Part shown: piece by piece, positions 3,821 to 22,641 of the stretch
Numbering within the stretch: the stretch's first letter is position 1
How the letters are laid out: every line of letters begins with the position of its first letter
IMG/VR virus record: IMGVR_UViG_3300037042_001524
Coordinates: 1-22,641 of that record
From: a virus
DNA length: 22,641 nucleotides
Strand: one strand, 5' to 3'
Program-made: the position numbers and the translations under genes
Notes under the pieces: model-generated
Told to the model about the DNA's origin: nothing
What the model saw: only the letters and a program-made list of their open reading frames with translations
Database searches by the model: none

Positions 3821-4433
3821 CCCATACACCATCGTCGACGCCATCAATCAGGTCGTGGAAACCATTGGCGAGTTCCCGATGGGCGGGACAACCCGTCCAA
3901 GCGCTGGAGGCGACACGACGTCGATCTACTGGCGTGCAGAAACCTTCATCGACCGCGCTATGTATCAGGTGCTGGCGCAGGGATGGCCGGAGAACACCGA
4001 GCGTGCCCGCGCTTTTACAGCCAACGGCTCCGGCTTGGTGACGGTGGCAAACATCCTGTCGATCAAGGCAACCGGGCCTGATCACTACCGGACGCTGGTG
4101 ATCCGCAACAATGCCGGAACGCCGACCGTGTACGACGCCGACAAGCGCACTTTCAACCTTGGCGCCAGCGCTGTCGTCTACCTAGACGTGACGGTGCTGC
4201 TTACGTGGGAAGACATCCCAGTCAAGTTGGCCGATGTCGTGGTGGCGCAAGCCAAGTTGCTGTTCCAGCGTCGTCTTCAGAACAGCCAGTTGGCTGACTC
4301 GCAGATGCAGCAGGAGTACATCCAGTCGGAAATCAGGGCTGACCGCAACGAAGCAAAGCGCAGCGACCTTCCGCCCAACACCCAACCGCAGTTCCCGCAG
4401 GCCGGAGGAGGCCAGCGCGAGCAGGGAGGCTAA
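3813..4433 (+). CDS. Tail tubular protein A, second copy (gp11-like paralogue)
   Basis: A 206-residue protein with the same overall plan as its neighbour. The N-terminal helix is IVDAINQVVETIGEFPM, followed by RAMYQVLAQGWPENTE (equivalent to the R-x-W segment of gp11). The pattern LLLTWEDIPVKLADVVVAQAKLLFQ and a Gln-rich C-terminal helix (QLADSQMQQEYIQSE) then match the gp11 family. It ends in a Pro/Gly/Gln-rich tail that the first copy lacks. It starts 8 nt before the previous stop and ends exactly where tubular B begins (TAA then ATG, no gap). Identity between the two copies looks low, so any duplication is old. It may form a mixed ring with copy one, or one copy may have taken a different connector role. 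Confidence 0.8.
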   Translation: MPNPYTIVDAINQVVETIGEFPMGGTTRPSAGGDTTSIYWRAETFIDRAMYQVLAQGWPENTERARAFTANGSGLVTVANILSIKATGPDHYRTLVIRNNAGTPTVYDADKRTFNLGASAVVYLDVTVLLTWEDIPVKLADVVVAQAKLLFQRRLQNSQLADSQMQQEYIQSEIRADRNEAKRSDLPPNTQPQFPQAGGGQREQGG

Positions 4434-6806
4434 ATGCCAACGACGAATCTGTATCAGCGCATTCCCGGGCTGATGCACGGCATCAGCAAACAGTCGCCGA
4501 CGATCCGGTATCCGGGTCAGGTTGCAGACGCGCTGAACGTCAACTTCAACGTCGTCGATGGCGCTCGAAAGCGTTCGGGAACAAGGAACGTAGCATTCAT
4601 CAGCGGCGCAGCGTACAACCAGCAGTATCGAATGCACCGCATCGAACGCGATGATGCAGAGGAGTACCTTGTCGTTGCTGGCTCCAGCGGGTTCATCAGG
4701 ATCATTGACGCCAACACAGGTACGGTGGTCACGCCGACAATAACTACTGCTGCATCTCAATACCTTGGGTATGGCGGCGCCAAGGCAGAGAACCTTCGGT
4801 TCGTGACGATTGCCGACAACACGTTCATCGCCAACACGCTGCGTCCTACGGCAACTACTGGCAACGGAACAGGGATCAACGGCAGCACCATGCCTGTCAG
4901 AATGCAGCGAACGACTACGTCGCCGCTGGCATTCAGCATTGATGTGTGCACGTGGAAAGATCGCCCGTTCTACAGGCAGGTTTTGTCTGCTGGCGCAACG
5001 GCTCCGACTAGCGGAGTCTTCAAGTTGAGTTATCTTGGCGACGTCACTCCGACCACGCTTTCGTACCGATGTACGTCCAAGCAGGTCGACGAATGCCTGA
5101 CCGGAAACGGACTTGACCCCGACGACTACCCGGACGACGCGATTCAGGGAATCCGATCAATCGTTCGCGGCAAGATCATCGTGACTGGCGGGCCACTTCC
5201 CGAGAAGGACATCTACATTGACTTCTCGCCTGACCTCAAGGTCGACAGCCTGATCAGCATTGTGCAAAGCACGATGAACGGCTCGTCGTATTTGGTCGAG
5301 CGCGGAGAAGAGTTTACGCAGCCAGCACCGAAGTTCATCAAGGAAGGTCGGAAGATTGTCGACATTGGCTACTTCCGCAACAGACTCATCCTGTGCAGCG
5401 ATGACTTCGTGTTCTTCAGCGCGACCGACGACTTGTTCAACCTCTTCAAGGAGCGCGCTGACCTACTGACGGATGCTGACCCCATTGAGGTTCAGTTGAG
5501 TGCGAACGACGTCACCATTGTCGACCACGTTGTACCATACCGACGATCCGTTCTTGTCCTGACCCGGGCTGGGCAGCAGTTTGAAGTCACCAGCGGTGAC
5601 GTGTTCGGCCCGGGTCAGGTTGCCGTCAGCCCAAGCACGCGGTACTCGACGAAGGCCATTCGCCCCGTTGCAGTCGGTGAGCGCATCTACATGCTTGGCG
5701 ACCACCCAAGCAAGACGCTGCTGTACGAATACTTCTACTCCGACACGGCTGTCAGCAACGTCGCAGCGGACGTCACAAAGCATGTCGACGACCTGCTTCC
5801 AAACGCAGTCATCGGGATGGACGCAAGTGCCAACAGCGACATGGTGTGCTGCATTGCCCGTCCTGATGCCGACGACATTGAGCGTGTTGTAACCAGCGCG
5901 CAAACTGGAAACTGGAGCCTGTCGACGACATGGGTCGGTGACGTGGCTCCGCAGCCGTACGACACGGCAATCATCGCTCCCGGTCACACGGTCACTCTTG
6001 ACTTCTACCCAGTTCCTCCGGCCAAAGGGACGCTGCCTGCATCTTTGATGTACGTGTACCGCTCGTACAACATCGGAAACGAGCGAAAGCAAAGTTCTTG
6101 GAGCGTGTGGCAGTTTGGCACGGACAACGTGCAAGACGCCAAGATCATTGACGATGAACTGTTTATCCTTCGGCGCGACGACGAGCAGATCGGAGGAACG
6201 TCAGGCATCTTCGTCGATAAGATGAATCTGACCGACGAATCATCGCCGCAAACGGGCTGGACGAATCAAGTTCAGATTGATCATTACCGCATGTTCAACG
6301 CCGGGCAAGGCACGTACAACGCTGGTGGCAACTACACGTCGTGGACTCTTGGCTACTACGATTCCGCAATCGACACATGCGTCTTTGACGACTTCACAAC
6401 CGCAGCGGCTACGCACGTCAACGGCGCCGTTCGGGTGACTGGCAATCACAGCGCCAAAAAGGTCATCGTTGGGCGCTCGTACGGCGCATTGATTGAGTTG
6501 AGCGAAGTTATCTTCAGAAACGAAGACCGCCCCGTCACCGAAGGGCGAACCATGCTGCACAAGTTGGTCGTCGACCACGTCAACAGCGGCAAGTACCTTG
6601 TCGACGTGACGAGAACGCCGGGAATCTCTTCGACATCTTCGTACATTCCAGCGGGCGGGTTCAATGAGTACGGTACGTTTACCTGCTGGGTGAGTACGCA
6701 GACCAACAGGTGCACGATCAAACTTACGTCTGACACCGTTCTTCCGGTCACGTGGAGCGGTGTCGAATACCACGGTACGTTTGCAACATTGCGGGAGTTC
6801 AAGTAA
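4434..6806 (+). CDS. Tail tubular protein B / nozzle (T7 gp12-like), with an inserted segment
   Basis: A 790-residue protein with the gp12 hallmarks. GISKQSPTIRYPGQVADALN near the start matches T7 GGISQQPDILRYPDQ, and RKRSGTRNV lies close behind. Further matches are LRFVTIADNTFIAN, the central YFRNRLILCSDDFVFFSATDDLFN (T7 FFRNRLGFLSGENIILSRT) and DPIEVQLSANDVTIVDHVVPYRRSVLVLTRAGQQF. The segment NERKQSSWSVWQFG matches T7 EELRQQSWSHWDFG. The protein forms the nozzle of the short tail, through which DNA exits. Residues about 484-523 do not belong to this plan: NWSLSTTWVGDVAP followed by DTAIIAPGHTVTLD resembles the start of G8/beta-helix polysaccharide-binding modules. It is inserted just before the conserved MYVYRSY strand. 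A strong GGGAGG ribosome site lies at 4423-4428. Confidence 0.88.
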   Translation: MPTTNLYQRIPGLMHGISKQSPTIRYPGQVADALNVNFNVVDGARKRSGTRNVAFISGAAYNQQYRMHRIERDDAEEYLVVAGSSGFIRIIDANTGTVVTPTITTAASQYLGYGGAKAENLRFVTIADNTFIANTLRPTATTGNGTGINGSTMPVRMQRTTTSPLAFSIDVCTWKDRPFYRQVLSAGATAPTSGVFKLSYLGDVTPTTLSYRCTSKQVDECLTGNGLDPDDYPDDAIQGIRSIVRGKIIVTGGPLPEKDIYIDFSPDLKVDSLISIVQSTMNGSSYLVERGEEFTQPAPKFIKEGRKIVDIGYFRNRLILCSDDFVFFSATDDLFNLFKERADLLTDADPIEVQLSANDVTIVDHVVPYRRSVLVLTRAGQQFEVTSGDVFGPGQVAVSPSTRYSTKAIRPVAVGERIYMLGDHPSKTLLYEYFYSDTAVSNVAADVTKHVDDLLPNAVIGMDASANSDMVCCIARPDADDIERVVTSAQTGNWSLSTTWVGDVAPQPYDTAIIAPGHTVTLDFYPVPPAKGTLPASLMYVYRSYNIGNERKQSSWSVWQFGTDNVQDAKIIDDELFILRRDDEQIGGTSGIFVDKMNLTDESSPQTGWTNQVQIDHYRMFNAGQGTYNAGGNYTSWTLGYYDSAIDTCVFDDFTTAAATHVNGAVRVTGNHSAKKVIVGRSYGALIELSEVIFRNEDRPVTEGRTMLHKLVVDHVNSGKYLVDVTRTPGISSTSSYIPAGGFNEYGTFTCWVSTQTNRCTIKLTSDTVLPVTWSGVEYHGTFATLREFK

Positions 6807-7405
6807 TGACTGGTGCAGAAATCCCAGCGATCATCGCCATTACGGCAGCAAGCGCTGCTGCATCTACAGCAAGCGCTGTAATGATGAATCAGCGCATCAA
6901 GCAAGGCATTGCCATGCAGGCTGCTGCAAATCAGGATCGTCAGAAGCAACTGACGTCGCAGCGCAACCTGATCGAATCGCAGATCACCGACCGTGCTGCG
7001 GCAGAATCTCGCATGAAAGAACGTGAAGCGTCAGCCGCTCGCGGTCGACTGCGAGCCGGAGCCGCTATGGCTGGTCTGTCGACTGGAAGCGGCGTTGGCG
7101 AGCAGATGATGAATCAACTGTTCTTCGACGAATCGTTTGCCAAGGACATGATTGAACGTGGTCGGTATGAGTCGATCCGAAGGGCAAACCTCGACTACCA
7201 GCAGCAGCAGTTGTCCAGCACGCAGGCGTACCAGTCGCAGGCGATGAACTACTCTATGCAGGCACAGAACCCGTTCCTTTCGGGCGTCACGGGTGGTCTT
7301 CAGGGGCTTGGAACGGGCCTGTCGATTGTCGGAGGAATGCGGCAACTCCAAGGCCCGGGCCAAGACATGTTTGGCAACGCGCTTCCTGTCCCTACCGGAG
7401 GTTGA
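6806..7405 (+). CDS. Internal virion (core) protein, T7 gp14-like
   Basis: A 199-residue protein if it starts at the ATG overlapping the previous stop (TAATG at 6804-6808). That start was preferred over an upstream in-frame ATG at 6752, which would lie inside the tubular B gene. The N-terminus AIIAITAASAAASTASAVMM is a small hydrophobic alanine-rich segment able to enter membranes. It is followed by a Gln/Arg/Glu-rich helix (roughly residues 30-85) and then RGRLRAGAAMAGLSTGSGVGEQM. This last pattern recurs in T7-like gp14 proteins ('R-x-x-A-G-x-S-G-x-S'). Gp14 is ejected with DNA and forms an outer-membrane pore. The C-terminus is Gly/Gln-rich. The gene sits exactly where gp14 is expected, after gp12 and before gp15/gp16. 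Confidence 0.75.
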   Translation: MTGAEIPAIIAITAASAAASTASAVMMNQRIKQGIAMQAAANQDRQKQLTSQRNLIESQITDRAAAESRMKEREASAARGRLRAGAAMAGLSTGSGVGEQMMNQLFFDESFAKDMIERGRYESIRRANLDYQQQQLSSTQAYQSQAMNYSMQAQNPFLSGVTGGLQGLGTGLSIVGGMRQLQGPGQDMFGNALPVPTGG

Positions 7406-7408: not shown

Positions 7409-9466
7409 ATGGCAGCACGAAACGAAACGCCGCGCTTGCCGACGACCCTGCTGGAAGGGCGAGAACTGCCGCCGCCTCCGCAGACGTCGTTCTACACCAA
7501 CCCGGTTCCGGTCATCGCTGTCAACGTGCCGGATCAGTTGCAGCAGATCATGCTGACGCTCAAGTCGGCGCAAAGCGCATTCGGAGAACTTGGTCAGTTC
7601 TACGGTCAGCAGCGTCAATGGGAACAGCAGTACCTGACCATGAAGCGTGGCGTAGGAGCCGACATGGCTGTTGACGACGTCGCCATCGCCAAGCAGTTGC
7701 CGACGGCTCCGTTTGACCCAAACGTCGTCAAGTATGCGCCACCCGACGCCATCGGCGATGACCAGTTGCCTGATTACTACGGTTCCCTCGCTGACAATCT
7801 TGTTCCGAAGGACGCCGGAGATTCCGTCAGGGCGGGATTCAGGGATAAGTTTGTTCCGGCTGCCGTTGACGCGGCCATTCAAATGCGCACCAACATGCGC
7901 AAGGAAGAGCGAGACAGTCGCGTCAACATGTTCGTCAAGGGAGTGACTGCGCAGGCCGGAATCCCGTCCAAGGATCAGGCATTCGGGGAAATCTTCGTCG
8001 AGCCTCGCGAAGGTAACGAACAAGCGCGATGGGAATACACGTGGATGCGCGAGAACTGGAGCGATCAGATGTACGCCGACACCGTGCTGCTTCCTGCGGC
8101 GCAGTTGGCGTTTGATCAGGGCGATCAGCGCAAGGCTGGTCAGTTGATGAGCGCAGCCGCAAAGGATGCCAGCCCTGACAAGTGGGGAACGATGGAGGCT
8201 CGTCTGCGCAAGGCAACGGTCGATGACGACAAGGAGTTCGTCAAGGCCAACATCCAAGCGCTGCACTACATGATGACCAACCCGACCGGATCGACAATGT
8301 CGTCGCGGCTGGACATGAACATGCGCGCTGATCGCGTTGCACACGGCATTGGTCGACTTCAGGACAACGGCGGGTGGGACGAAAGCGCGCAACGTCAGTT
8401 CGTACTTGATGCAGACACCGTGATCCTCAACAACACGCTTCCCATTGATGACCGGATTGCGTTCGCGCAGGCGCTTGTGGATGGGCTGTACACGTTCCCG
8501 ATTGATGTCGACCGGGAAGCAATCAGTCCCAATCCAAACGATCCAATGGCAGCGCAAAAGATGATGGCGCGCTACAACACGGCGTATGACCGGATGAAGA
8601 ACGGAGAGGAAGTCACCGATAGCGACTGGGAAGACATGGACATTCCGGTCGAACTTGACTCTCGAATGATCTTCTCGCCCGACGACCCGGTTGTCACCAA
8701 CCTGAACATCAGGATTGACAGGCTGATGGGGCTTCGTGAAACGGAAGCCAAGGCCGTCAAGGACAACAACGACAAGCGCACGGACACCATGACCACCGAG
8801 ATCATGCTGTTTCTTGCCAGCCCGAACGCAGCGGAGCCGACCAAGGTCGCAGAGTTCAGCGCCAAGTTGGACGACAAGTACGGCAAGGACGGCGTGGTGA
8901 TGATGCGTCGGCTGGCCGGGCAGGAAGGCAATCAGTTCCGCGACGACAACGCAACGCGGTTGCTGGTTCGCATGAGCGAGGCGACTAGCGCGGCAGACTT
9001 GGCTGCAATCGAAGCGGACGCACAGATGCTTGGCAGCAACGGCCTGTTGTCGCCGGAAGCGTTCAAGCGAGTTCAGGATGCCCGAACTGCGTGGCAGACA
9101 GGCGCAAGCATTCGCGATGACGTAGACGTCAAAGAACTGCGCACAACTATTGCACAAGAGTACGACAACATTGAGTTTGCCGTGTCCAAGGAGAACGGCA
9201 ACGTCGTGCTTGATCAGGCAACTGGCACGTTCAAGGCGATTCCGACCCCGGGAGCGCAGATGCGTCGGCAGAAGATGCTTCGCGACTTCGACCGTCAGGT
9301 CAATCAGTTCCTGATGCGCGACGATGTTCGAGCGCGCATGCGAACAGATCCCTTCAAGGTTCGCGAGGAACTGATGGACAGGATTGAGCCGATGTTTACC
9401 ATAGACGTCATTCGCGGCTTCCATGCCGACGGCCAGCGCAAGATGCAAGAGGGCAACACGCGATGA
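7409..9466 (+). CDS. Internal virion protein, probable T7 gp15-like
   Basis: A 685-residue, largely helical, soluble-looking protein. The N-terminus is Pro-rich (RELPPPPQTSFYTNP). A Gln-rich amphipathic stretch follows at about 44-75 (LQQIMLTLKSAQSAFGELGQ), then acidic helical segments such as QLPTAPFDPNVVKYAPPD. I see no membrane segment, enzyme motif or signal peptide. T7 gp15 (about 747 residues) is a helical inner-core protein ejected with gp16. The size, composition and position between the gp14-like and giant genes make this the natural equivalent, though sequence similarity to T7 itself is not visible to me. A good ribosome site (CCGGAGGTT) precedes the start. It ends in ATGA, overlapping the next start by 4 nt. 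The opposite strand is also open for almost the same length, which is a codon-bias artefact. Confidence 0.65.
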   Translation: MAARNETPRLPTTLLEGRELPPPPQTSFYTNPVPVIAVNVPDQLQQIMLTLKSAQSAFGELGQFYGQQRQWEQQYLTMKRGVGADMAVDDVAIAKQLPTAPFDPNVVKYAPPDAIGDDQLPDYYGSLADNLVPKDAGDSVRAGFRDKFVPAAVDAAIQMRTNMRKEERDSRVNMFVKGVTAQAGIPSKDQAFGEIFVEPREGNEQARWEYTWMRENWSDQMYADTVLLPAAQLAFDQGDQRKAGQLMSAAAKDASPDKWGTMEARLRKATVDDDKEFVKANIQALHYMMTNPTGSTMSSRLDMNMRADRVAHGIGRLQDNGGWDESAQRQFVLDADTVILNNTLPIDDRIAFAQALVDGLYTFPIDVDREAISPNPNDPMAAQKMMARYNTAYDRMKNGEEVTDSDWEDMDIPVELDSRMIFSPDDPVVTNLNIRIDRLMGLRETEAKAVKDNNDKRTDTMTTEIMLFLASPNAAEPTKVAEFSAKLDDKYGKDGVVMMRRLAGQEGNQFRDDNATRLLVRMSEATSAADLAAIEADAQMLGSNGLLSPEAFKRVQDARTAWQTGASIRDDVDVKELRTTIAQEYDNIEFAVSKENGNVVLDQATGTFKAIPTPGAQMRRQKMLRDFDRQVNQFLMRDDVRARMRTDPFKVREELMDRIEPMFTIDVIRGFHADGQRKMQEGNTR

Positions 9467-12400
9467 GTCAGATGCCTACGCCTCCCGATCCAATCGAAGA
9501 AGAGCGCCGCCGACGCACCGACGGCATGGTCGACAAGCGCGGAGGCTTTGCGGCGATGCCGTCGCCGCCTGCTGAATCGGGCATCAACACCCCAGCAGAG
9601 CAGGCGTTTGCCGAGGGCATGCGTGCTACTGGCCGCACATCCATGACCGAGCAACTTGCCGCAGCGGGGGCCGAAACTCCGCAGCAAGCCGGAGCGATGG
9701 CAGAACAGCAACTGCGCAGTCGCAACGCAGGGACTGGATACGGAGCGCCGCAGAAGTTTGACCGAGCAGAAGAGCAGGCATTGCGCGACGTTGCAGCAAC
9801 AGCACGTTCGGGCGGCCCAATGTTCCCGCAGGACGAAATCACGGCCATGCGCCTTATGCAGGCGCAGATGCGTCAGGATGCCAGCATTCTACCGATGGTG
9901 ATGCAGGTCACGGGATCAGAGGACACCAAGGAAAGCAACAACGTCCTCAACAAGATCAGGGCAAGCGTTGCGTTTGACGACGCCAATGCTCCGGCAACCT
10001 ACGAGTCTGCCGTTGAAGCGAATCAACTTGCTCGCCTGAATCCGTACCGCGCCGAGGTTCTTGGTCAGAAGGAACGCGAAGCGCTCAAGGAGTACGGGGA
10101 CATTGTCCTCGACCCGAACTCGTCGCCTGAAGACAGGCTTGCCGCGCTTACCGAGTGGGTTCGTATCGACCGAGATACCGCTCCCGGTCGCGATGCGATG
10201 GCGCGTCAAGCAGCCATTGACTTTGGCAAGAAGAAGGTCGGATACTTCACCTACGACGACTACGTCGCGTGGTACTACAAGACCGAAGGCAAGGACAGTT
10301 GGCTGTCGTCGTGGACGAAGTGGCCTTCGTACCTGACTGTCGGCGAGGCTGGCGATCCCGAGCGCACGTCAGGAACTTATGGCGCCGGATACGTGTGGAA
10401 CAACCTGATGGATGGCGCTGGCCTGATCCTTCAGGCTCCACAGCGCGCTGGCGAATCGGCATACAACCTTGTCGTCAGGGACGTCTTTGGTGGGACGCCC
10501 CTGACGTACACGGACAACATGTACTCGTCCGAGTACGTCATTCCCAACCTTGCTGGCGGCATTGCCCAGTTCTACGTCGGATACGGGCCGATCAAGTCAC
10601 TTGCTGGCCTTGGACGCGCCGGAGCGGCGCCGAACTTCATCCGCGCTGCACTTGCAAGCGAGGCTGCCACGTTCATTGTGTTCGATCCGCGACACGGCAA
10701 CCTTGCGTCGATGCTGCGCGAGTTCGGCATCGGCGAGGAGGCGCTGGCCGGGCTTGACGCCAAGAAACTGGCTGAAGGCGGCGAAGGCTTCAAGGCGCGA
10801 TTCACCAGCGCCATCGAAGGCTTGATCATGGGCGCTGCCGTCGAGAAGGCAATCATCCCCGGCGCCGCGCGCGCTGCCGGAGCCGCTGGCGGTGCTGGTC
10901 GAGCGACGATGGCAAACGCCGTCAGGTACTTGGAGAAGATGGGCGGATTCGAGCCTGACTCCATCCTCAAGACGCTGCCGCGACCGATTCGCGAGGCAGC
11001 GATTAGCAAGGACACGGCACGGGCTGTGGCTGAACTGACCGCGTACGGAGTCGAGCGCAGTCGCCGAATGGGGAAACTGCTATCCGAAGGCAAGACGCAT
11101 GAGGAAGCGCTGCTTTCCGTGCAGAAGGAGTTCCCTCTTCAGCAGTACGTCGATGGCGTTCGTCGCGTGACTCGCGCAATGATTGCAAGTTCGTTCAACG
11201 TGTCAGCGGATCAAGCCGATGTTCTGTTCGGTCGCTTTACCGCTGCCGGGCTTGATTGGGAGCGCGTGTTCTTCACGCTTCCTGACAACGTCAGCGAGCG
11301 CATGCACAAGTTGCTGTACGAAGGCGCCGAGCAGATGCGTCAGGCTGGCGACGCCGGAGTGTCTGCAATCGTTCGAGGTGGCGTCGGCGAAGAGATGGGG
11401 CTGACCATCAACGACGCAGTTGCCGTGTACACCAACAGCAACAACTGGTGGAAGCGCAAGGAACTTTGGCCGAACGGCGAACCTCCGGCGACGTTGAGCC
11501 AAGCCGATGTCGAGCGACTTCCCGGCCAGTTGCGCACAATGGCAGAGGATGCCCTGCGCGAACTGCGAGACAAGTATTCGCCGCAGGACGGATGGTCTAC
11601 TCCAAGCGTCGGTGCGACGAAAGAGAAGCCTGCGCTCAAGTTTGACATCGACGAAGAGGGCGAGTTCAAGGCCATATGGAACTTTCAGAAGCAGAACCAC
11701 ACGTTCCATCTTGATGAGATGGGAGATGTTCTGAAGCCCGGTTCATCCGGTTGGAACACTCGCGTCGAAGACATCGCGACCAAGATGGTTGATGAAGTTC
11801 GGGTCATTGACCTCGTTGCTCGTCAGACTGGACGCAGCCCACTCAAGACTCGAATGCAAGCGGTCATGTCCGCAAGTCGCTGGTATCGCGACGTCGCGGA
11901 AAGCATTCGTGGCAACTACGGCCCGTATGCTGACGTGTTCGCAGAACTGCTTGGAGCCACCAGCGCAAAGACTCCAGTCGCTACCAACTGGAGGTATGCA
12001 ACCGACATTCTTCGCCAGTTTACAAGCGGCAAGTACGACGATCAGATGGCGAGATACGTGTCTCTGCTCGAATCGCAGCAGGCATGGGATGCTTCTGAAT
12101 CGGCGGCCATTGCGGAGATTCGTGCCGCACGCGCTGTTGAAACAAAGGCCGCGATGTCTGCTGAAAGGGCGGCGAAGAAGGCTGGTGAAGCAAATGTTCC
12201 GCAAGGTGCGCGCGCGTATTCCAAGGCTGAACTGGACAAGTTGGTCGAGGATCGAATCGGCAAGCGTCCTGAACTGACGGAAGAGTTCAAGATTCGCAGC
12301 GACGTCGGCAACCTGTTCGGGAGCAACACCGAGCATGCGATGAAGGTTCTTGCGGCAACGTGGGTGACTGTCAAGCAAGGCAGCAATCCAAAGACGCGCA

Positions 12401-15400
12401 ACTTCACAAAGAACCTGCTTGGCGACTTCAGCATGGCGACCGTTGATGTGTGGGCTGCCCGCTCATTGCAGCGGATGGCAAACATGCCTCGAATCGCAAT
12501 GGACGAGTCTTCCGCTGGAACCCTTTGGGATCGGCTTGGTTCTGCTCGAAAGCAAGAGACAGGCCGTATTGCGCCATCGGCAGAAGAGGGCGTTGTCGGT
12601 GCATACCAGCCAACCGCCGGAGCCATTGTTGATCCCGAGACTGGCGCTGTCATGGGAGCAAAGAGAGGCTACGGCATCGGAAGCGCTTATGGCGTCGGTG
12701 CAGAAGCGTTCGATGTTGCCGCCAAGAGACTCAAGGAACAGCACGGCATTGACGTGACTCCGGCAGACCTTCAGGCCATCATGTGGTTTGCCGAGAAGGA
12801 TCATTGGCACTACAACCTTGGGCAGAAACTCGACCTTGGAAGTTTTGAGAAGGGGCTGCGCAGGGACTTTGCTGGCGAGGGCGGTCGGTACATCTCCGGC
12901 ACCCTTGGAGGACAGCCGGGCCGTGATCTTGCAGAGGCTGGCGCAAAGGCGATGGAACAGTCGCTTGCTGGCGATGCCAACCTGCTGTTCAAGAGAGCGA
13001 CCATTGCAAACGGTTCAGTTGGTGGACGCGATGCAAGCGGATTCGTCGTCGACGTCGGCGTCACGAACTACGACATGCCTATTGAAGGCGGGCCGTTTGC
13101 AGCGACCAGCCCGGTTGACGTCAAGAGCACGGGAAACCGACGGCTCAATCAGGCAAGCGCAGATTCCGTCATCTCGCGCATGGCGCAGCATGCCAAGGAA
13201 TCGAACAGCGAGTCGTTCTACGTTGCTCGAATCGTCACCGATATGACTGGTTCGGAGGTTCAGGTAACTCCTCCGGCAAAGTCAGGTCAGAAGCAAGCAG
13301 ACGTAGCGCCTGTGAAGGTTGGAGAGGGAAACCTCAACCCAACGGCAAGCACGGTTGGAGTCGAGTTCCAGTTCAAGACTCCACTCGAAGAGAACAACCC
13401 TGCCATTCAGCGGCTTCGCAAGCAGTTTGCGGAGTTCGGCATGCAGTTCGACTCTGCCGCAGAGCGCGCCACCAACAACGTATCCGGCATTGCTGGGGCT
13501 AGGTCAATCTACGTTCCTGACTTTGATCCGCAGATCGTTGCTCTTGCTGACAGCGGTGCGACGTCCGCAGAGATTGCCAGCATGATTGAGAAGCGGAAGC
13601 GTGACTTCCGTTCGCTCGTCAGCAGGACGAAGCAGATCAAGGAGTTCAAGGACAACTCGACCGTCACTAACCTGACGGCTGAAATCGACGTGTACCATTC
13701 GCATCAGTTCGACGAACTGATTGGGCCGCAGGCAGCGGCAGAAGGAGCAGAAGATGCAACCCAAGCCGTCAAGCGCAAGTGGGCGCCCGAAACCCCTGAA
13801 GATCGAATCGCCCGAACAGCCCAGTTCAAGCGGGATGCAGCCGTCGGAATCGACGCCACCCCCGATGGACAGTCAGTCGAGCAAGCCGTCGGAGCCGGAG
13901 CAGTCAGAGCGACTGATGGTGATGTTTCTCCCAGCGCGACGAACGTAAACCCGACCGACGGAACGAAGATTCTGTTCAACACGTCAGGCGCGCAAGCACG
14001 CGCCGTGGCGGCCATCGAAGAGCAGACTGGCATCGCGTTTGTCGCTGGACTCAACATGCCCGACGTCGTGTCGGCTGCGCATGAGTTTGGTCACGCCCTG
14101 CGCAATCAGTTGCTCAACCGCAACCTTCCGATTGAGCGCCGCGCTGGCATTCCCGACACGACCATCGAAGCATTCGAGCAAGCGTACGGCGTCGTCAACG
14201 GAACGTGGACGCGAGGTCAAGAGGAATCGTTTGTCGACGACCTGCTTGAGGTTCTTCGCGATGGCACCGCTGTTCCGGCGCGGCTTGCTGGCGTCGGGCG
14301 CGACGAGCAGTTGATCATGGCGTCATGGCTGCGTGATCAATGGCGCGTGGCTCGCAAATCTCCGGCATCGACTGGCGTTCCCACCGACACGCGACGCTTG
14401 CTTGAGAACCTGTATTACCGCACCGACCTGCCGATTCAGTACGCGCCGGGTCGCTACCTGATGCCGATTGACCACTCTGCGGTCATCGCACGCATCCAGC
14501 AGGCGCAGGCAAACAACGAGGATTGGCTACAGGTCATCAACCCGAACGACGCGCTTGGCACCGCACGCATGCACGTCTTCGACGGCAGGCCGACCATGCG
14601 CGACGAGCGTACTGGCCGCTTCCGCGCGGGCACGGACAGGGAGCGAGCGTTTGCCTCGCCGAACGGCTACAACCTGACGCCAGCGCAGGTCAACGATCTT
14701 CGCACGCGAGCCGCCGCCGGAGATGCTGACGCGCGGCGTCAGATTGCCGACATTGATTCTCGACGGCAGGAGATTCGCGACAACCTGCGGTTCTTCGAGA
14801 ACCCGGACGACCCGCTGATCTACATGGCGTACTTCGAGTCGCTGGCGCGGGAGATGGAAGCCCGCAACATGCTGGGCGGCCCGGCAACTCGCGACCAGTT
14901 GACGCGGCGCTCGTTGTCGATGTTCAACGAACTGCTGATGAACGATGCCGACGACCTGTCGCAGGGCATCGCTTCGATGTGGGCGCGTATGAACGACGTC
15001 AGCCGGATCGACCAAGAACTTCCGGCGTTTGTCAGCACGGTTCAGTTGGCTCTTCAGGGACAGTTGCGTCAGACCCACAGGCTTGCGCAGCGCGCTGTCC
15101 AAACCAACAACCCGGCAGACTTCGCGTTGCTTCAGCGTTCATTCTTTGACCTTCAGATGCTGCGCTTCCACATGCGCAACACCAAGACGGCGATGGGTCG
15201 TGGACTCAAGTCTCTTGATCCGCAGATGCTGCCGAACGCGGCTGAACTTCGCGACCTTCGCAACGCGCGCAACTTCCTTGAGCAGAACGGCTTTGTCGAC
15301 GACATCGGCAGGCCGCTTGCAGAGACTCTTGCGCGCATTGATCCCGACCTCGACCCCAATGCCGCCGTCCGCATCCTCAACGACGTGTGGCGCCCGGGCG

Positions 15401-17637
15401 AAATGCAGCGCGGGAACTTCCTGATGGAGGTGTACCGAAACGGACTTCTGTCCCTTCCGCGATCTTGGTTTGGCCTTCAGTTGGTCAGCCCGGCGCTCAC
15501 GCTTGGCGTTGAGGGTTTGCAGAAACTGTCGGCAGCCGGAATCCGTGGCGACATGCTGACATCCGTGGAAACGCTACGCAACCTGCCTCGCATGCTCAAC
15601 AACATGCAGCACGGTCTTCGCTTCGGAGCGCGCACGTTCGTGTCCGAATCTCCGACCTTGATGCCGCACGGAACTGGCATCGTGCAGGACACGTTTGTCC
15701 CTGCCATCCACTCTGATCAGGACAACATCCTTGGCAACATGATCAACGTCGCTGGTCGCGGAGTTCGACTGCCGTCTACGTTCATCGCAAGCATTGACGA
15801 GTTTTGGAAGCAGGCGACTGCGCGCACGGAGATGCAGAGCACCCTGTATCGACGGCTTATGCAGGAGCGCATGACCGCAGCAGGCGTGACCGGATGGCGA
15901 GACACGCTTGCTTTCATGCGCGCAAACCACCGCGCCGTTTCGCAGGAAGCGGACGCGATGGGCCAGCGCTACATCCGCGACGGAGCGATTCGCGACAGGA
16001 CGATGATCGGTCGCGAGGCGATGAACGATCCTCGAATCTCTGCGGAGCAAGACCCGCTGCGTCGCGCGTCGATGATGCACGACTACATCAACCAGCATTG
16101 GACGGAAGATCAGGCTAGAACGACGCAAGGAATCGCGGAAGCAGCCAACAGGCAGTCGTACACCGAGCCGATTCCCGGCCTTGGCGGCGCAGTTCGTCAT
16201 CACCTCCAGCAACATTGGTGGATGCAACTCATTGTGCCGTTCTACACGGCGCCCATGAACATCCTTCGTCGCGCTTGGGGATACCTGTCAGCACCAGCCA
16301 TGATGGGCGGCGACGTCGCTGTTGGACTTGCAACCGAACGACGATTCCGGTTGAACCCCAACAGCAGGCTGTATCGCATGCACCATCAGACGATGATGGA
16401 CATGGCTTCGGGCGATCCGGCGCGCATCTCTCGCGCGCAGGGTCAGGTTCTTGTCGGCATGACGATGCTTGGAACCGGATACGGCCTGTTCCAAGACGGT
16501 CGTATCACGGGAGCCGGGCCTGCTGATCCCGAGCAGCGTCGCATGTGGCAGCAGAGTGGACGTCGTCCGTACTCAATCAAGATGGGCGACAGGTGGTACG
16601 CCTACAAGAAACTCGACCCGTTCGGCATGCTTCTTGGGTGGGTTGCCGACTACCACGAACTCACGTCGGGCATGTACGAGAACGACGAAGAAGACGTGAT
16701 CGGGCCTGCAACAGCAATCGCGTATGCGCTTACGACGTCGACCATCAACAAGTCGTACATGCAGACGCTCGACATGCTGCTTGAAGCCAACGACGATCCG
16801 GTCAAGATGGAGCGCGTGATGGCACGCATGCTTATGACCATCAACCCGGTGACTGGCCTTGGCTCAAGCCTTCAGGCTGGCACGCTTGCAGCGGGCGATC
16901 CGTACGCGGTCGATCCGATGAGCGGGGTCAAGGCAGACGAGGGTCTTGGCAAGGAAGTCGAACTGCTGCTCAACGAGATGCGAGCCAAGAGTTGGTGGGG
17001 AACCACCGCTGGCGGTCGCGACGTCATGTCTCGTCGGTACAGCGCGCTTGGCGAACCGATCAAGACGTTCGATCCTGCGCAGGACTACCCGTGGGCCGAT
17101 CTTGTTTCTCCGGTTACTTCGAGCGCGGTTGCCAACGATCCTGTCGTCGAGGCAATGATTGGCATGCCTCACATTTGGCGCTCGACGCCGCCCAACAAGA
17201 ACGGAGTCAACCTCAAGCAGGTTCGCATTCCGCAGACCAAGCGGACTGCATACGACCTGTACAACGAGCAGATCGCGACGGTGCTCATGCCGTTCCCGAT
17301 GGGCGACGGCACGTCGAAGAAACTGACTCTTCGTCAGGCTCTATCGCACATCATCGAAGGCAAGGGCGCCGAAGGAAGGATGTTCAAGTCGTTCACGGAC
17401 ACCAACCCGGAGAACTACCCGGGCGAGAACCCGCCCGACATCTCCATGTTTGTCCGCGTCATCGAACGCTACCGCACCGCCGCTTGGACGCAGACGCTGG
17501 TTTCCAGCCCTGAACTTCGATCCGTGTTCGACGAACAGCGCAACTCCCTGATTGAATCGAAGAAGAAGGACGCTGCTCGCATCAACGCAAACAGAAACTC
17601 CGAACTCGAATCAGCCGTGGAGGCGGCAAGCCAATGA
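9463..17637 (+). CDS. Giant internal virion / ejection protein with HEFGH peptidase-like domain
   Basis: A 2724-residue protein filling 36% of the window. The N-terminus is Pro/Ala/Arg-rich, and a glycine/alanine hydrophobic patch lies around 445-485. An Ala/Lys/Glu helix covers about 880-910. Residues about 970-1125 contain KTRNFTKNLLGDF, ATVDVWAARS and DLQAIMWFAEKDHWHYN, a pattern I know from large phage polyvalent proteins. HEFGH at 1540-1544 with EESFVDDLLEVL at 1587-1598 has the spacing of a gluzincin-type zinc peptidase (two His, downstream Glu). The C-terminal third has membrane-compatible segments (LIVPFYTAPMNIL near 2257, GQVLVGMTMLGTGYGLF near 2327) and KLDPFGMLLGWVADYHEL near 2383. 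Position after gp14/gp15-like genes suggests the gp16 role: an ejected protein that opens a path for DNA across the envelope. I see no transglycosylase motif. T7 gp16 is about half this size. Confidence 0.75.
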   Translation: MSQMPTPPDPIEEERRRRTDGMVDKRGGFAAMPSPPAESGINTPAEQAFAEGMRATGRTSMTEQLAAAGAETPQQAGAMAEQQLRSRNAGTGYGAPQKFDRAEEQALRDVAATARSGGPMFPQDEITAMRLMQAQMRQDASILPMVMQVTGSEDTKESNNVLNKIRASVAFDDANAPATYESAVEANQLARLNPYRAEVLGQKEREALKEYGDIVLDPNSSPEDRLAALTEWVRIDRDTAPGRDAMARQAAIDFGKKKVGYFTYDDYVAWYYKTEGKDSWLSSWTKWPSYLTVGEAGDPERTSGTYGAGYVWNNLMDGAGLILQAPQRAGESAYNLVVRDVFGGTPLTYTDNMYSSEYVIPNLAGGIAQFYVGYGPIKSLAGLGRAGAAPNFIRAALASEAATFIVFDPRHGNLASMLREFGIGEEALAGLDAKKLAEGGEGFKARFTSAIEGLIMGAAVEKAIIPGAARAAGAAGGAGRATMANAVRYLEKMGGFEPDSILKTLPRPIREAAISKDTARAVAELTAYGVERSRRMGKLLSEGKTHEEALLSVQKEFPLQQYVDGVRRVTRAMIASSFNVSADQADVLFGRFTAAGLDWERVFFTLPDNVSERMHKLLYEGAEQMRQAGDAGVSAIVRGGVGEEMGLTINDAVAVYTNSNNWWKRKELWPNGEPPATLSQADVERLPGQLRTMAEDALRELRDKYSPQDGWSTPSVGATKEKPALKFDIDEEGEFKAIWNFQKQNHTFHLDEMGDVLKPGSSGWNTRVEDIATKMVDEVRVIDLVARQTGRSPLKTRMQAVMSASRWYRDVAESIRGNYGPYADVFAELLGATSAKTPVATNWRYATDILRQFTSGKYDDQMARYVSLLESQQAWDASESAAIAEIRAARAVETKAAMSAERAAKKAGEANVPQGARAYSKAELDKLVEDRIGKRPELTEEFKIRSDVGNLFGSNTEHAMKVLAATWVTVKQGSNPKTRNFTKNLLGDFSMATVDVWAARSLQRMANMPRIAMDESSAGTLWDRLGSARKQETGRIAPSAEEGVVGAYQPTAGAIVDPETGAVMGAKRGYGIGSAYGVGAEAFDVAAKRLKEQHGIDVTPADLQAIMWFAEKDHWHYNLGQKLDLGSFEKGLRRDFAGEGGRYISGTLGGQPGRDLAEAGAKAMEQSLAGDANLLFKRATIANGSVGGRDASGFVVDVGVTNYDMPIEGGPFAATSPVDVKSTGNRRLNQASADSVISRMAQHAKESNSESFYVARIVTDMTGSEVQVTPPAKSGQKQADVAPVKVGEGNLNPTASTVGVEFQFKTPLEENNPAIQRLRKQFAEFGMQFDSAAERATNNVSGIAGARSIYVPDFDPQIVALADSGATSAEIASMIEKRKRDFRSLVSRTKQIKEFKDNSTVTNLTAEIDVYHSHQFDELIGPQAAAEGAEDATQAVKRKWAPETPEDRIARTAQFKRDAAVGIDATPDGQSVEQAVGAGAVRATDGDVSPSATNVNPTDGTKILFNTSGAQARAVAAIEEQTGIAFVAGLNMPDVVSAAHEFGHALRNQLLNRNLPIERRAGIPDTTIEAFEQAYGVVNGTWTRGQEESFVDDLLEVLRDGTAVPARLAGVGRDEQLIMASWLRDQWRVARKSPASTGVPTDTRRLLENLYYRTDLPIQYAPGRYLMPIDHSAVIARIQQAQANNEDWLQVINPNDALGTARMHVFDGRPTMRDERTGRFRAGTDRERAFASPNGYNLTPAQVNDLRTRAAAGDADARRQIADIDSRRQEIRDNLRFFENPDDPLIYMAYFESLAREMEARNMLGGPATRDQLTRRSLSMFNELLMNDADDLSQGIASMWARMNDVSRIDQELPAFVSTVQLALQGQLRQTHRLAQRAVQTNNPADFALLQRSFFDLQMLRFHMRNTKTAMGRGLKSLDPQMLPNAAELRDLRNARNFLEQNGFVDDIGRPLAETLARIDPDLDPNAAVRILNDVWRPGEMQRGNFLMEVYRNGLLSLPRSWFGLQLVSPALTLGVEGLQKLSAAGIRGDMLTSVETLRNLPRMLNNMQHGLRFGARTFVSESPTLMPHGTGIVQDTFVPAIHSDQDNILGNMINVAGRGVRLPSTFIASIDEFWKQATARTEMQSTLYRRLMQERMTAAGVTGWRDTLAFMRANHRAVSQEADAMGQRYIRDGAIRDRTMIGREAMNDPRISAEQDPLRRASMMHDYINQHWTEDQARTTQGIAEAANRQSYTEPIPGLGGAVRHHLQQHWWMQLIVPFYTAPMNILRRAWGYLSAPAMMGGDVAVGLATERRFRLNPNSRLYRMHHQTMMDMASGDPARISRAQGQVLVGMTMLGTGYGLFQDGRITGAGPADPEQRRMWQQSGRRPYSIKMGDRWYAYKKLDPFGMLLGWVADYHELTSGMYENDEEDVIGPATAIAYALTTSTINKSYMQTLDMLLEANDDPVKMERVMARMLMTINPVTGLGSSLQAGTLAAGDPYAVDPMSGVKADEGLGKEVELLLNEMRAKSWWGTTAGGRDVMSRRYSALGEPIKTFDPAQDYPWADLVSPVTSSAVANDPVVEAMIGMPHIWRSTPPNKNGVNLKQVRIPQTKRTAYDLYNEQIATVLMPFPMGDGTSKKLTLRQALSHIIEGKGAEGRMFKSFTDTNPENYPGENPPDISMFVRVIERYRTAAWTQTLVSSPELRSVFDEQRNSLIESKKKDAARINANRNSELESAVEAASQ

Positions 17638-20707: not shown

Positions 20708-21142
20708 TCAGGTCAAGGCCCAGTACCCGTAGACGCACCGAGTTCCGGCTCGCGACGGGTCGTGGGTATCGTTGATGATGCCGTTGATGACGGCGACGTA
20801 GTGCTTGCTGACGGCCACGACCAACTTGCCGTCGGGCAACTCGCCATCGCGCAGGTGCACCTTGCAGCCCTGCCCGACCAGCATCGTCGGCACCCAGCGG
20901 AACCCCAGCGACGCCATGTAGTCCCTGAACCACTTGCGGCTGGTGTTGACGCCGTCGCGGGCGCTCGACTGCCGATTGCCGCCCTTGGTGACTCGCTGGG
21001 CACGACAGCCAGCCGACAGGGCGTCGTAGACCTCGCGGTAGGAGCGACCCGACGCAATGGCAACCGACCGCACCACGCAGTCGCCAGCCGTCCCGCTGTA
21101 CCCGGCAGCCGCGCGGCCACCGTCTGTAATGAACACTCTCAT
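20708..21142 (-). CDS. Papain-like Cys/His protein of unknown role
   Basis: A 144-residue protein on the opposite strand to everything else in the window. It contains GTAGDCVVRSVAIASG (C22), SKHYVAVING (H114) and NDTHDPSRAGTRCVYGYW (N124/D125). A Cys near the N-terminus, a later His and then Asn/Asp is the order of a papain-like triad. I recall this protein type (D-C-V-V-R-A-I-A ... VHL-x-D-G-E-L-P ... H-x-x-A-V-I-D-G-V-I-x-D-T) from phages and bacterial genomes as an uncharacterised family. Catalysis is therefore likely but unproven; targets are unknown. It has its own near-consensus sigma70 promoter, leader hairpin and GGAGG site, so it is probably transcribed early by host polymerase. A hairpin terminator follows. 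Confidence 0.75.
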   Translation of the reverse strand: MRVFITDGGRAAAGYSGTAGDCVVRSVAIASGRSYREVYDALSAGCRAQRVTKGGNRQSSARDGVNTSRKWFRDYMASLGFRWVPTMLVGQGCKVHLRDGELPDGKLVVAVSKHYVAVINGIINDTHDPSRAGTRCVYGYWALT

Positions 21143-21146
21143 GCTG

Positions 21147-21188
21147 AACCTCCGGTAGGGGTTTCGACCACCAGCACGCTGCTGGTTG
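21147..21188 (-). promoter_or_regulatory. Leader module 1: stem-loop plus CCCTACCGGAGG ribosome site
   Basis: On the minus strand, ACCAGC-AGCGT-GCTGGT (21170-21186) forms a 6-bp stem with a 5-nt loop near the transcript's 5' end. CCCCTACCGGAGGTT (21147-21161) follows, placing GGAGG 6 nt before the ATG at 21142. The same order recurs before 21842 and 22571. The first stem pair is A-T here and C-G in leader 2, a compensatory change. Confidence 0.8.
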
Positions 21189-21243
21189 TACGGTGATCAT
21201 ACAGCATGTCCACGCTGCTGTCAAGTGGCAAAAATGCAAGATT
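21189..21243 (-). promoter_or_regulatory. Leftward sigma70 promoter P1
   Basis: On the minus strand, TTGACA (21219-21224) and TATGAT (21196-21201) are separated by exactly 17 bp, one mismatch from full consensus. CACCGTA (21189-21195) follows immediately, as in P2 and P3. AATCTTGCA lies upstream at 21235-21243, 19 bp before the -35. A 10-bp direct repeat (CACGCTGCTG on +) occurs in the spacer at 21211-21220 and in the leader hairpin at 21175-21184; it could bind a regulator. This promoter should drive the papain-like gene. Confidence 0.88.
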
Positions 21244-21736
21244 CGTTCACCGTCACGTAAATAGGGAGATGGGGTGAGCGAGCAGCAGCGAGCGAACCCC
21301 CAACCCAGCCCAACGCCCGTCCCGATGTGCAACGCATTGCACAGGGGTGACAGGGAGGGCGGTGGGGTAGGAAGGTCGGAATGTTAGGTGCACGGACTTA
21401 TGAGAGGTGGTACGTAGTACGTCCCACACCCCAGCCCCCCCGCGCCCCCCGCCTCGCGCGCGGGCACCCGCGAGCGCGACGCGCACGCACGCACACGCGA
21501 CGCGCGCACGCGACGCGCCCACGCGACACGCGCGCATGACGCGCGAGCGACGCCCGGCGAGTCGTGCCGGGACTCGCACCGGGTCGACGGGCACGCCGCA
21601 GCGCCGCACGTCGTCGACCTGCCCGCCGGGCGCCCGGCCCGGCCCGCACGTGCGACGCACGCACGTCGCCCCGGACGTCCAGCCCCCAGCACGCTGCACG
21701 CTCGCATGCTGCCCGCAACCGCAGCACGGGACGATT
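21244..21736. other. Non-coding spacer: dyads and a GC-rich alternating tract; candidate genome-end junction
   Basis: This stretch of about 490 bp has no convincing gene. From the left it holds: a T3-promoter-like string ending in AATAGGGAGA (21249-21269); an inverted repeat TGTGCAA-CGCA-TTGCACA (21326-21343); a 21-bp dyad with half-sites GTGGTACGTA and TACGTCCCAC (21407-21427). A C-rich run follows, then a long CG/CA/GC alternating tract (about 21440-21540) prone to Z-form or slippage. Next is a hairpin GCGAGTC-GTGCCGG-GACTCGC (21557-21577). The reading frame that crosses it and joins the 21842 gene is Arg/Pro/Thr-rich low-complexity sequence and is not credible. The position, between late genes ending in the terminase region and early genes, is where a T7-like phage has its terminal repeat and packaging junction; that is inference. 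Confidence 0.6.
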
Positions 21737-21796
21737 GTGCACAATCTTTCACCTTGCCGCTTGACAGCACCCGATGCATGGCGTATCGTCACCGTA
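21737..21796 (+). promoter_or_regulatory. Rightward sigma70 promoter P2
   Basis: TTGACA (21761-21766), 17 bp, TATCGT (21784-21789), then CACCGTA (21790-21796). AATCTTTCA lies at 21743-21751, 18 bp before the -35, within a 16-bp sequence GTGCACAATCTTTCAC (21737-21752) that is repeated exactly at 22454. The upstream edge also makes a 14-bp perfect palindrome GATTGTGCACAATC (21733-21746), a candidate operator. It should drive the 178-residue gene at 21842. Confidence 0.85.
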
Positions 21797-21797
21797 T

Positions 21798-21833
21798 GCC
21801 CAGCGTGTGCTGGGCCTCGCAACCCTACCGGAG
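21798..21833 (+). promoter_or_regulatory. Leader module 2: stem-loop plus CCCTACCGGAG ribosome site
   Basis: GCCCAGC-GTGT-GCTGGGC (21798-21815) forms a 7-bp perfect stem with a 4-nt loop, starting near the expected transcript start. CCCTACCGGAG (21823-21833) follows, giving GGAG about 8 nt before the ATG at 21842. This supports 21842 as the true start, since any upstream start would lie before the promoter. Confidence 0.8.
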
Positions 21834-21841
21834 CCTGCACC

Positions 21842-22378
21842 ATGATCAGCACCTACCTCGACCACTCGACCCAGTTCAACCCCGCCAACGTCGCGAACGG
21901 CACCGCCTACCGGATCGACTGCGACCCGGGCAGCGACCGCAGCGCGCACTACCTTGGCGATGACCGCACGGTGGCGCCCTACTGGGTCGAGGCCCAGCGG
22001 GCGCTGGTGTTCGCGACGCACGACGACGCCGTGGCCTACGCCCGCGCCCGGCTCGAAGGCGAGCATGCGCAGTACAACCGCGCGCCGCAGTCGCGGCCCG
22101 GGCTGGGCTGGCGCGTCGAGCAGTTCGACTACACGCGCGGCATCGTCGACGGCGACGTCGACCCGGCGATGGGCGACCTCGAACGTGCGCAGATGCTGGC
22201 GACGTTCGCGCGGAACCACGGCGTGGCGGCCTATCCCGTGGTGCGCGCTGGCGGCACCTACGTGGCCGTGCAGTCGTCGGCCACGTTCCGATGGTCTGAC
22301 GACGTCGGCGTCACCGTCGACCACGTCGACGTGGTGCCCGCCACGTGGCGCGACGTGCGCCAGCACATGGGCTACTGA
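21842..22378 (+). CDS. Hypothetical early protein (178 aa)
   Basis: A 178-residue acidic protein starting MISTYLDHSTQFNPANVANG. The ATG at 21842 was chosen because promoter P2 and the leader stem-loop lie directly before it, although the frame stays open upstream. It contains HDDAVAYARARLEGEHAQYN (a helix), WRVEQFDYTRGIVDGDVDP, and a repeating V/D-rich end (SDDVGVTVDHVDVVPATW). It has no signal peptide, membrane segment or enzyme motif, and I do not recognise it. Codon usage is visibly more GC-rich than in the late genes. The strong promoter and position as the first rightward gene suggest an early host-takeover or defence-countering product; that is only context. A UUCG-capped terminator follows. 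Confidence 0.75.
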   Translation: MISTYLDHSTQFNPANVANGTAYRIDCDPGSDRSAHYLGDDRTVAPYWVEAQRALVFATHDDAVAYARARLEGEHAQYNRAPQSRPGLGWRVEQFDYTRGIVDGDVDPAMGDLERAQMLATFARNHGVAAYPVVRAGGTYVAVQSSATFRWSDDVGVTVDHVDVVPATWRDVRQHMGY

Positions 22379-22403
22379 CGCCAGCACGCCAGCCGTCGAC
22401 CAC

Positions 22404-22436
22404 GCGGGCGCCCTTCGGGGCGCTCGCTGTCGTTTG
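22404..22436 (+). terminator. Intrinsic terminator with UUCG tetraloop
   Basis: GCGGGCGCCC (22404-22413) pairs with GGGCGCTCGC (22418-22427) over 10 bp including one G-T pair. It is closed by a TTCG loop in the very stable C(UUCG)G context. A weak U-containing tail TGTCGTTT follows. It begins 25 nt after the stop of the 178-residue gene and lies before promoter P3, so that gene probably forms a single-gene transcription unit. Confidence 0.8.
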
Positions 22437-22453
22437 GTGCCGATAACGAGAAA

Positions 22454-22523
22454 GTGCACAATCTTTCACAATCTTGCACGCTGGGCCTTGCGTGCAGCCG
22501 ACTGATACCGTAAGTTCACCGTA
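22454..22523 (+). promoter_or_regulatory. Rightward sigma70-type promoter P3
   Basis: TTGCGT (22488-22493), 17 bp, TAAGTT (22511-22516), then CACCGTA (22517-22523). The hexamers are weaker than in P1 and P2 but the register with CACCGTA is identical. Upstream are two AATCTTKCA boxes (22460-22468 and 22470-22478), exactly 10 bp apart. The first lies inside GTGCACAATCTTTCAC (22454-22469), identical to P2. The nearer box is 18 bp from the -35, as in P2. Confidence 0.7.
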
Positions 22524-22524
22524 T

Positions 22525-22561
22525 GCCCAGCACGTCGCCGGGCGCCCAACCCCTACCGGAG
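22525..22561 (+). promoter_or_regulatory. Leader module 3: stem-loop plus CCCTACCGGAG ribosome site
   Basis: GCCCAGC-ACGTC-GCCGGGC (22525-22543) makes a 7-position stem with one A-C mismatch and a 5-nt loop. CCCTACCGGAG (22551-22561) follows, giving GGAG 9 nt before the ATG at 22571. The order and spacing match leaders 1 and 2, while bases in the stem differ. Confidence 0.75.
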
Positions 22562-22570
22562 TACACCACA

Positions 22571-22641
22571 ATGCCAACCGCACGCGCCAAGTCCGAACGC
22601 TTCGACCTGTACCAGCACGTCACCGACGCCGTCGTCGCCGC
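22571..22641 (+). CDS. N-terminus of an early protein resembling ArdC/DUF1738, cut by the window edge
   Basis: Only 23 complete codons are visible before the right edge. The stretch SERFDLYQHVTDAVVA resembles the opening of the ArdC N-terminal (DUF1738) domain, whose usual form is (F/R)-D-(V/L)-Y-(Q/E)-x-V-T-(D/N)-x-I-(I/V)-A, followed by L-E-x-G-x-x-P-W. ArdC proteins bind single-stranded DNA and can protect incoming DNA from restriction, which would suit an early phage gene. The match covers too few residues to be certain. The start is supported by promoter P3, its leader stem-loop and the GGAG site. Confidence 0.5.
   Translation, partial: MPTARAKSERFDLYQHVTDAVVA

Follow-up and report, generated by a model that had tools for sequence, protein, structure and literature searches.

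The life of the Escherichia coli ompA and papA mRNAs is lengthened by a stem-loop at their 5' end (Emory, Bouvet and Belasco 1992; Bricker and Belasco 1999, cited in PMC3997798). In the betaproteobacterium Cupriavidus necator, the stem-loop upstream of the Shine-Dalgarno sequence in the T7 gene 10 leader raised expression 1.5-3-fold and increased the amount of mRNA (PMC6146998). This leader is like those described here in being a phage leader with its hairpin upstream of the ribosome-binding site. The Pseudomonas phage LUZ100 has an early layout similar to that of the phage analysed here and carries the host-specific early promoters P1 and P2 (PMC10134795; OP329100).

The window, the whole stretch of 22,641 bases that we analysed, is a virus record encoding T7-like tail tubular proteins, a phrog_457 tail protein and a phrog_38 terminase large subunit; it is a 22.6-kb fragment of an uncultured T7-like podovirus. 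One reading frame of 2724 aa (9463-17637) occupies its structural region and presumably encodes a large virion protein. Terminase relatives among viral contigs comprised three full-length proteins with 94% identity, one partial protein with 95% identity and one with 77% identity, the last from a more distant relative (L027). An integrase-based search returned only the relatives already found, and a terminase search of bacterial genomes gave no prophage or host copies of the lineage. The three cassettes described below sit at the right end of the window, directly beyond the terminase cluster, and the window ends inside the start of the third gene. The 41.5-kb contig G002, of which L025 is the early end, carries the terminase, then genes A, B and C and other small genes, then an integrase and a T7-like RNA polymerase. 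Its order is that of a T7-like early region with integrase, in which the terminase is followed by the early genes, the integrase and the single-subunit RNA polymerase. LUZ100 and Pelagibacter phage HTVC200P, both T7-like phages with an integrase, have a similar layout, and an integrase is encoded by both L025 and L027.

The earlier note had described three genes here as sharing one ordered cassette of an AATCTTKCA element, a -35 and a -10 hexamer, CACCGTA, a stem-loop, CCCTACCGGAG and ATG. All three cassettes were found at the places given, with the parts in that order and a 17-bp spacer in each. Cassette A (21140-21243, minus strand) consists of the upstream element AATCTTGCA (21235-21243), -35 TTGACA (21219-21224), 17 bp, -10 TATGAT (21196-21201), CACCGTA (21189-21195, predicted +1 at the A at 21189), the hairpin ACCAGC (21181-21186), AGCGT loop (21176-21180) and GCTGGT (21170-21175), then CCCTACCGGAG (21150-21160) and ATG (21140-21142). 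Cassette B (21743-21844, plus strand) has AATCTTTCA (21743-21751), -35 TTGACA (21761-21766), 17 bp, -10 TATCGT (21784-21789), CACCGTA (21790-21796, predicted +1 at the A at 21796), the hairpin GCCCAGC (21798-21804), GTGT loop (21805-21808) and GCTGGGC (21809-21815), CCCTACCGGAG (21823-21833) and ATG (21842-21844). Cassette C (22460-22573, plus strand) opens with two tandem elements, AATCTTTCA (22460-22468) and AATCTTGCA (22470-22478), and continues with -35 TTGCGT (22488-22493), 17 bp, -10 TAAGTT (22511-22516), CACCGTA (22517-22523, predicted +1 at the A at 22523), the hairpin GCCCAGC (22525-22531), ACGTC loop (22532-22536) and GCCGGGC (22537-22543), CCCTACCGGAG (22551-22561) and ATG (22571-22573). 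The stem-loop of six to seven positions held in A and B; copy C pairs at 6/7 only, with one A·C mismatch. Each cassette is present at the same gene in three near relatives (A and B in L025, L026 and G001; C in L025, L026 and L024).

The promoters of all three resemble host-polymerase promoters of the sigma-70 type. With the 17-bp spacer, A matched the consensus at 11/12 positions and B at 10/12 (0.4 expected in shuffles), while the weak promoter of C (TTGCGT/TAAGTT) was missed by the hexamer scan. The AATCTTKCA element occurs four times in the window, every time inside A, B or C (0.23 expected; 0/100 shuffles reached four), and its first base lies 18-19 bp ahead of the -35. A perfect 14-bp palindrome, GATTGTGCACAATC (21733-21746), overlaps this element in cassette B, and at cassette C the stretch 22454-22478 holds GTGCACAATCTT followed by the second AATCTT as a direct repeat. 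These palindromic or repeated elements look like a protein-binding site near -55. Taking +1 as 7 nt after the -10, the predicted transcripts have 2-3 unpaired nucleotides before the stem, which starts at +3 in B and C and at +4 in A; the stem ends 14-16 nt before GGAG, and GGAG lies 7-9 nt before ATG.

Two of the proposed parts did not prove specific to the cassette. CACCGTA is replaced in relatives by GCCTGTA, CCCTGCA, CATGGCA, GCATGCA or GCCTGCA, and its one extra copy in the window (4721, minus strand) stands without a cassette. We therefore rejected it as a specific motif, since it varies in every relative and what persists is only a start region whose seventh base is A; judged by these sequences, it is best taken as an ordinary discriminator plus start region. 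Similarly, CCCTACCGGAG also occurs at 7390 before a structural gene (7409) that has no cassette, and L025 has CCCTACC..GGAG-like sites before early genes without promoter or hairpin. It was rejected as a mark of the cassette because it precedes genes that have neither, and CCCTACC before GGAG is, on this sequence comparison, a general ribosome-binding-site style of the phage. Limnohabitans phage YIMV22061 (L057, PQ492660) has a similar site, ACCCTACGGAG. On its minus strand (5250-6900) a structured intergenic leader, GATCCTCTCGC...GAGAC...TCACGGA, occurs three times before early genes, and these repeated leaders terminate in ACCCTACGGAG or a similar site.

Gene A (20708-21142, minus strand, 144 aa) runs leftward from its cassette, belongs to phrog_3754 (unknown function) and is 77-78% identical in three near relatives. 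Gene B (21842-22378, plus strand, 178 aa) is 61-65% identical in two relatives and had no match in Pfam or PHROG. A terminator-like hairpin of 10 pairs with a TTCG loop (22404-22427, plus strand) follows gene B, and a similar one stands at the same place in L025, so gene B is probably monocistronic; such sites arise by chance in shuffles too. Gene C is represented by its start only (22571-22641, plus strand), being cut by the contig end. Its L025 orthologue of 333 aa is ArdC-like (ArdcN plus MPTase-PolyVal), which identifies gene C by homology as an ArdC-type antirestriction gene. Between the divergent cassettes A and B lie about 500 bp (21250-21740) without a clear gene, with a G+C content of 65-72%. 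ARAGORN found no tRNA in this interval, which is possibly a genome end, an origin or an attachment region; it contains a fully conserved near-palindrome, TGTGCAACGCATTGCACA (21326-21343).

The proposal that the cassette is an early-region control unit read by the host polymerase found support in the sigma-70-like promoters and in the position of the genes just right of the terminase cluster. Further support came from the ArdC-type gene C and from the T7-like RNA polymerase downstream in G002, a near relative, which implies that transcription of the first genes should fall to the host polymerase. The hairpin, by contrast, is not a standard part of every early unit, as had been suggested. Two strong L025 promoters, TTGACA-17-TATACT at 10678 and 12074, lead straight to the Shine-Dalgarno sequence without hairpin or AATCTT, which means that hairpin and AATCTT accompany each other in cassettes A, B and C without being a feature of every early promoter. 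A third promoter-like site in L025 without a hairpin (TTGACA-17-TAGGAT, 13840-13875) lies upstream of a small integrase-adjacent gene, has its -35 inside the dyad TTGACAAGCCGTCAA and probably gives a leaderless mRNA. Scans of viral contigs for the cassette patterns gave 66 matching stretches; outside the lineage of the window, none of these had the full unit, with a hairpin adjoining a promoter that departs from the consensus by at most two mismatches. Eight T7-like phages served as comparators, the majority of them carrying an annotated integrase; only three promoter-like sites passed a strict scan and none had a 5' hairpin, a sample too small to generalise from. A literature search, limited mainly to non-subscription papers, turned up no account of a leader of this sort in these phages. 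The cassette is a real, lineage-specific early-gene unit assembled from known parts.

Perfect stems with a minimum length of 6 bp and a 3-6-nt loop, starting at +1 to +4, turn up at 5% of positions in the window, stems of at least 7 bp at 2%, and seven positions with one mismatch at 15%. By this background the hairpins of A and B are individually only modestly unusual, and the weight of the evidence lies in repetition, position and conservation. Eight distinct promoter-like sites were examined: A, B and C, three in L025 (D, E and the leaderless one) and two in L027 (X1 and X2). A mismatch-free stem of at least 6 bp was present in 4/8, a result to which a simple binomial at 5% gives a probability of about 4 in 10,000. 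Because the window copies had been chosen for their hairpins by the earlier note, L027 is the cleaner test of chance. There, the hexamer scan alone found two promoter-like sites directly upstream of genes, and both lead into hairpins starting at +1/+2, GCCGG(GAGTT)CCGGC and CCAAATC(ACGTT)GGTTTGG, which are unrelated in sequence (L027 background for stems of at least 6 bp, 4.7%). The place of these hairpins is kept and their sequence is not, as expected of an RNA structure. L027 also carries two strong tandem hairpins between its first two early genes (4410-4475), CCACCGGC-GCAA-GCCGGTGG and CTTGCGA-CTTC-TCGCAAG.

For the isolated hairpins the folding energies are -9.9 kcal/mol in A (z -1.8), -14.3 kcal/mol in B (z -4.6) and -10.2 kcal/mol in C (z -1.5). 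The whole window leaders fold only slightly better than shuffles (z -0.4 to -1.2), with GGAG partly in weak pairs. Loop length is 4 or 5 nt, depending on the copy. The proposed covariation of the stem amounts to one two-sided change among seven pairs (C-G to A-U), which separates family A from families B and C and does not occur within them. Among the nine A/B/C leaders, 4/7 pairs never vary, the outermost is absent in A, and one shows a G-U as well as the A·C of copy C (three A·C cells). Several compensatory changes across relatives were not found, and one two-sided pair was reached by 418/500 shuffles; the covariation score on the nine leaders was reached by 6/500. When the structure was slid by 1-3 columns, 25-45% of cells paired, compared with 90.5% in register. 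Such poor pairing out of register shows that the helix is present, and the covariation claim itself comes down to a single exchange. Compared by sequence, the L027 stems are a better sign that pairing matters than the covariation of A, B and C.

We assign a probability of about 0.55 to the reading in which the host polymerase starts early transcription at A, B and C from strong promoters, and the mRNAs would open with a protective stem-loop like those of ompA and T7 gene 10. In its favour are the steady place of the hairpin in the predicted transcripts, the unchanged block at C, the L027 hairpins, the loop length that differs between copies, the host-specific promoters of LUZ100 and the effect of the T7 gene 10 stem-loop in C. 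necator. A 5'-terminal hairpin is, by analogy with those mRNAs, a plausible mRNA protector. The sigma-70-type promoters would give short transcripts of the first genes after infection (A, B and the ArdC antirestriction gene), each beginning with 2-3 unpaired nucleotides and a stem-loop of six to seven positions, with the Shine-Dalgarno sequence 14-16 nt further on. If the leader folds in the cell as predicted, the base-paired 5' end would hinder 5'-end-dependent decay, in which RppH removes pyrophosphate and RNase E then acts, while the Shine-Dalgarno sequence would stay accessible. The early mRNAs would thereby be longer-lived and more translated. The three L025 promoter-like sites without a hairpin, the weak covariation, the A·C mismatch that copy C keeps in four genomes, the strong conservation of all the non-coding DNA between A and B, the weak folding of whole leaders and the CCAGC arm, which is more constant across copies than pairing alone needs, speak against this reading.

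The constant arm also bears on the main rival, that the dyad CCAGC-N4/5-GCTGG in the first 20 transcribed bp is a DNA operator at which a phage repressor, binding the upstream AATCTT / GTGCACAATC element as well or not, shuts off the early genes in lysogeny. We consider this unlikely. All three cassettes retain the half-site CC(A/G)GC. Its variable base can be A or G on either arm without preference for pairing, with the result that one copy has a G-U and another an A·C. An operator would also fit the integrase in the lineage (L025 and L027), the palindrome GATTGTGCACAATC over the upstream element of cassette B, and the dyad GCGCATAAGATGCGC that P1 and P2 of LUZ100 share over the -10. However, the copies are not uniform in half-site spacing, which shifts by 1 bp, the dyads of L027 share no sequence with one another or with A, B and C, and no MarR-like repressor was recognised upstream of the L025 integrase, where a 75-aa ORF has no Pfam match.

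It is quite improbable that the cassettes are simply copies of one ancestral promoter-leader, with an inherited hairpin that has no function itself. Aligned as an inverted repeat over 51 bp, A and B show 73% similarity, and a stem of at least 6 bp is found by chance at the 5% of positions given above. Regardless of the hairpins, relatives share about 90% of the non-coding sequence surrounding A and B, and the roughly 500 bp between them are strongly conserved, which makes hairpin conservation at these two copies the weaker argument. Compared with the window, the block from +1 through the stem was identical at 19/22 positions in A and at 20/22 and 19/22 in B (pairs compared), and the promoter spacer at 7/17 in A and 11-12/17 in B; discriminators matched at 1-3/6 over A, B and C. 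Divergence has thus affected the spacers and discriminators and spared the hairpin block. This is clearest at C, where the 22-nt block is 22/22 identical between the window and L025 while the discriminator matches at 1/6, the -35 at 3/6 and the spacer at 13/17, and the Shine-Dalgarno region has changed. The hairpin of C is unchanged in four genomes, A·C mismatch included, and in all genomes having the cassettes the hairpin starts at +3/+4 of the predicted transcript. The L027 hairpins, in the same place with other sequences, also argue against mere inheritance.

It is still less probable that the hairpin is an RNA-level site through which a phage or host protein or a small RNA tunes early-gene translation. 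The CCAGC...GCTGG core and the similar loops are conserved beyond the needs of pairing, and hairpin C is conserved exactly; however, GGAG is left uncovered by the hairpin, which ends 14-16 nt before it, no Rfam family scored above its gathering threshold and matches were at chance level only, and the L027 hairpins differ in sequence. It is very improbable that a single dyad works at two levels, binding a repressor as DNA and shielding the 5' end as an RNA hairpin, in a modular unit of integrase-bearing T7-like phages through which one short sequence would set lysogenic silence and mRNA longevity in infection.

If the preferred reading of mRNA protection is right, the phage would be a clear natural case in which the same stabilising 5' end stands on several host-transcribed early genes, with an antirestriction gene among the beneficiaries, and the cassette could serve as it stands as an expression unit, probably a strong one. 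The T7 gene 10 leader is that of a late gene and is read by the phage polymerase, whereas the cassette promoters are host-type and presumably early. Like LUZ100, the phage is T7-like and integrase-bearing, with repeated TTGACA-17-TAnnnT promoters in its early region. Unlike the cassettes, the P1 and P2 leaders have no 5'-terminal hairpin of at least 5 bp and have instead the shared dyad over the -10 (L058, OP329100, 356-606), which the text of the LUZ100 paper (PMC10134795), searched for operator and palindrome, does not mention. As in ompA and papA as described in PMC3997798, the cassette hairpin lies within a few nucleotides of the predicted 5' end and a separate Shine-Dalgarno sequence follows. 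The cassettes differ from these in serving phage early genes, in occurring in three copies on both strands and in having the upstream AATCTT element, and protection by their hairpins is what we infer. Protective 5' hairpins are an already known device and the cassette is of a known kind, which apart from the possible protection role agrees with known biology.
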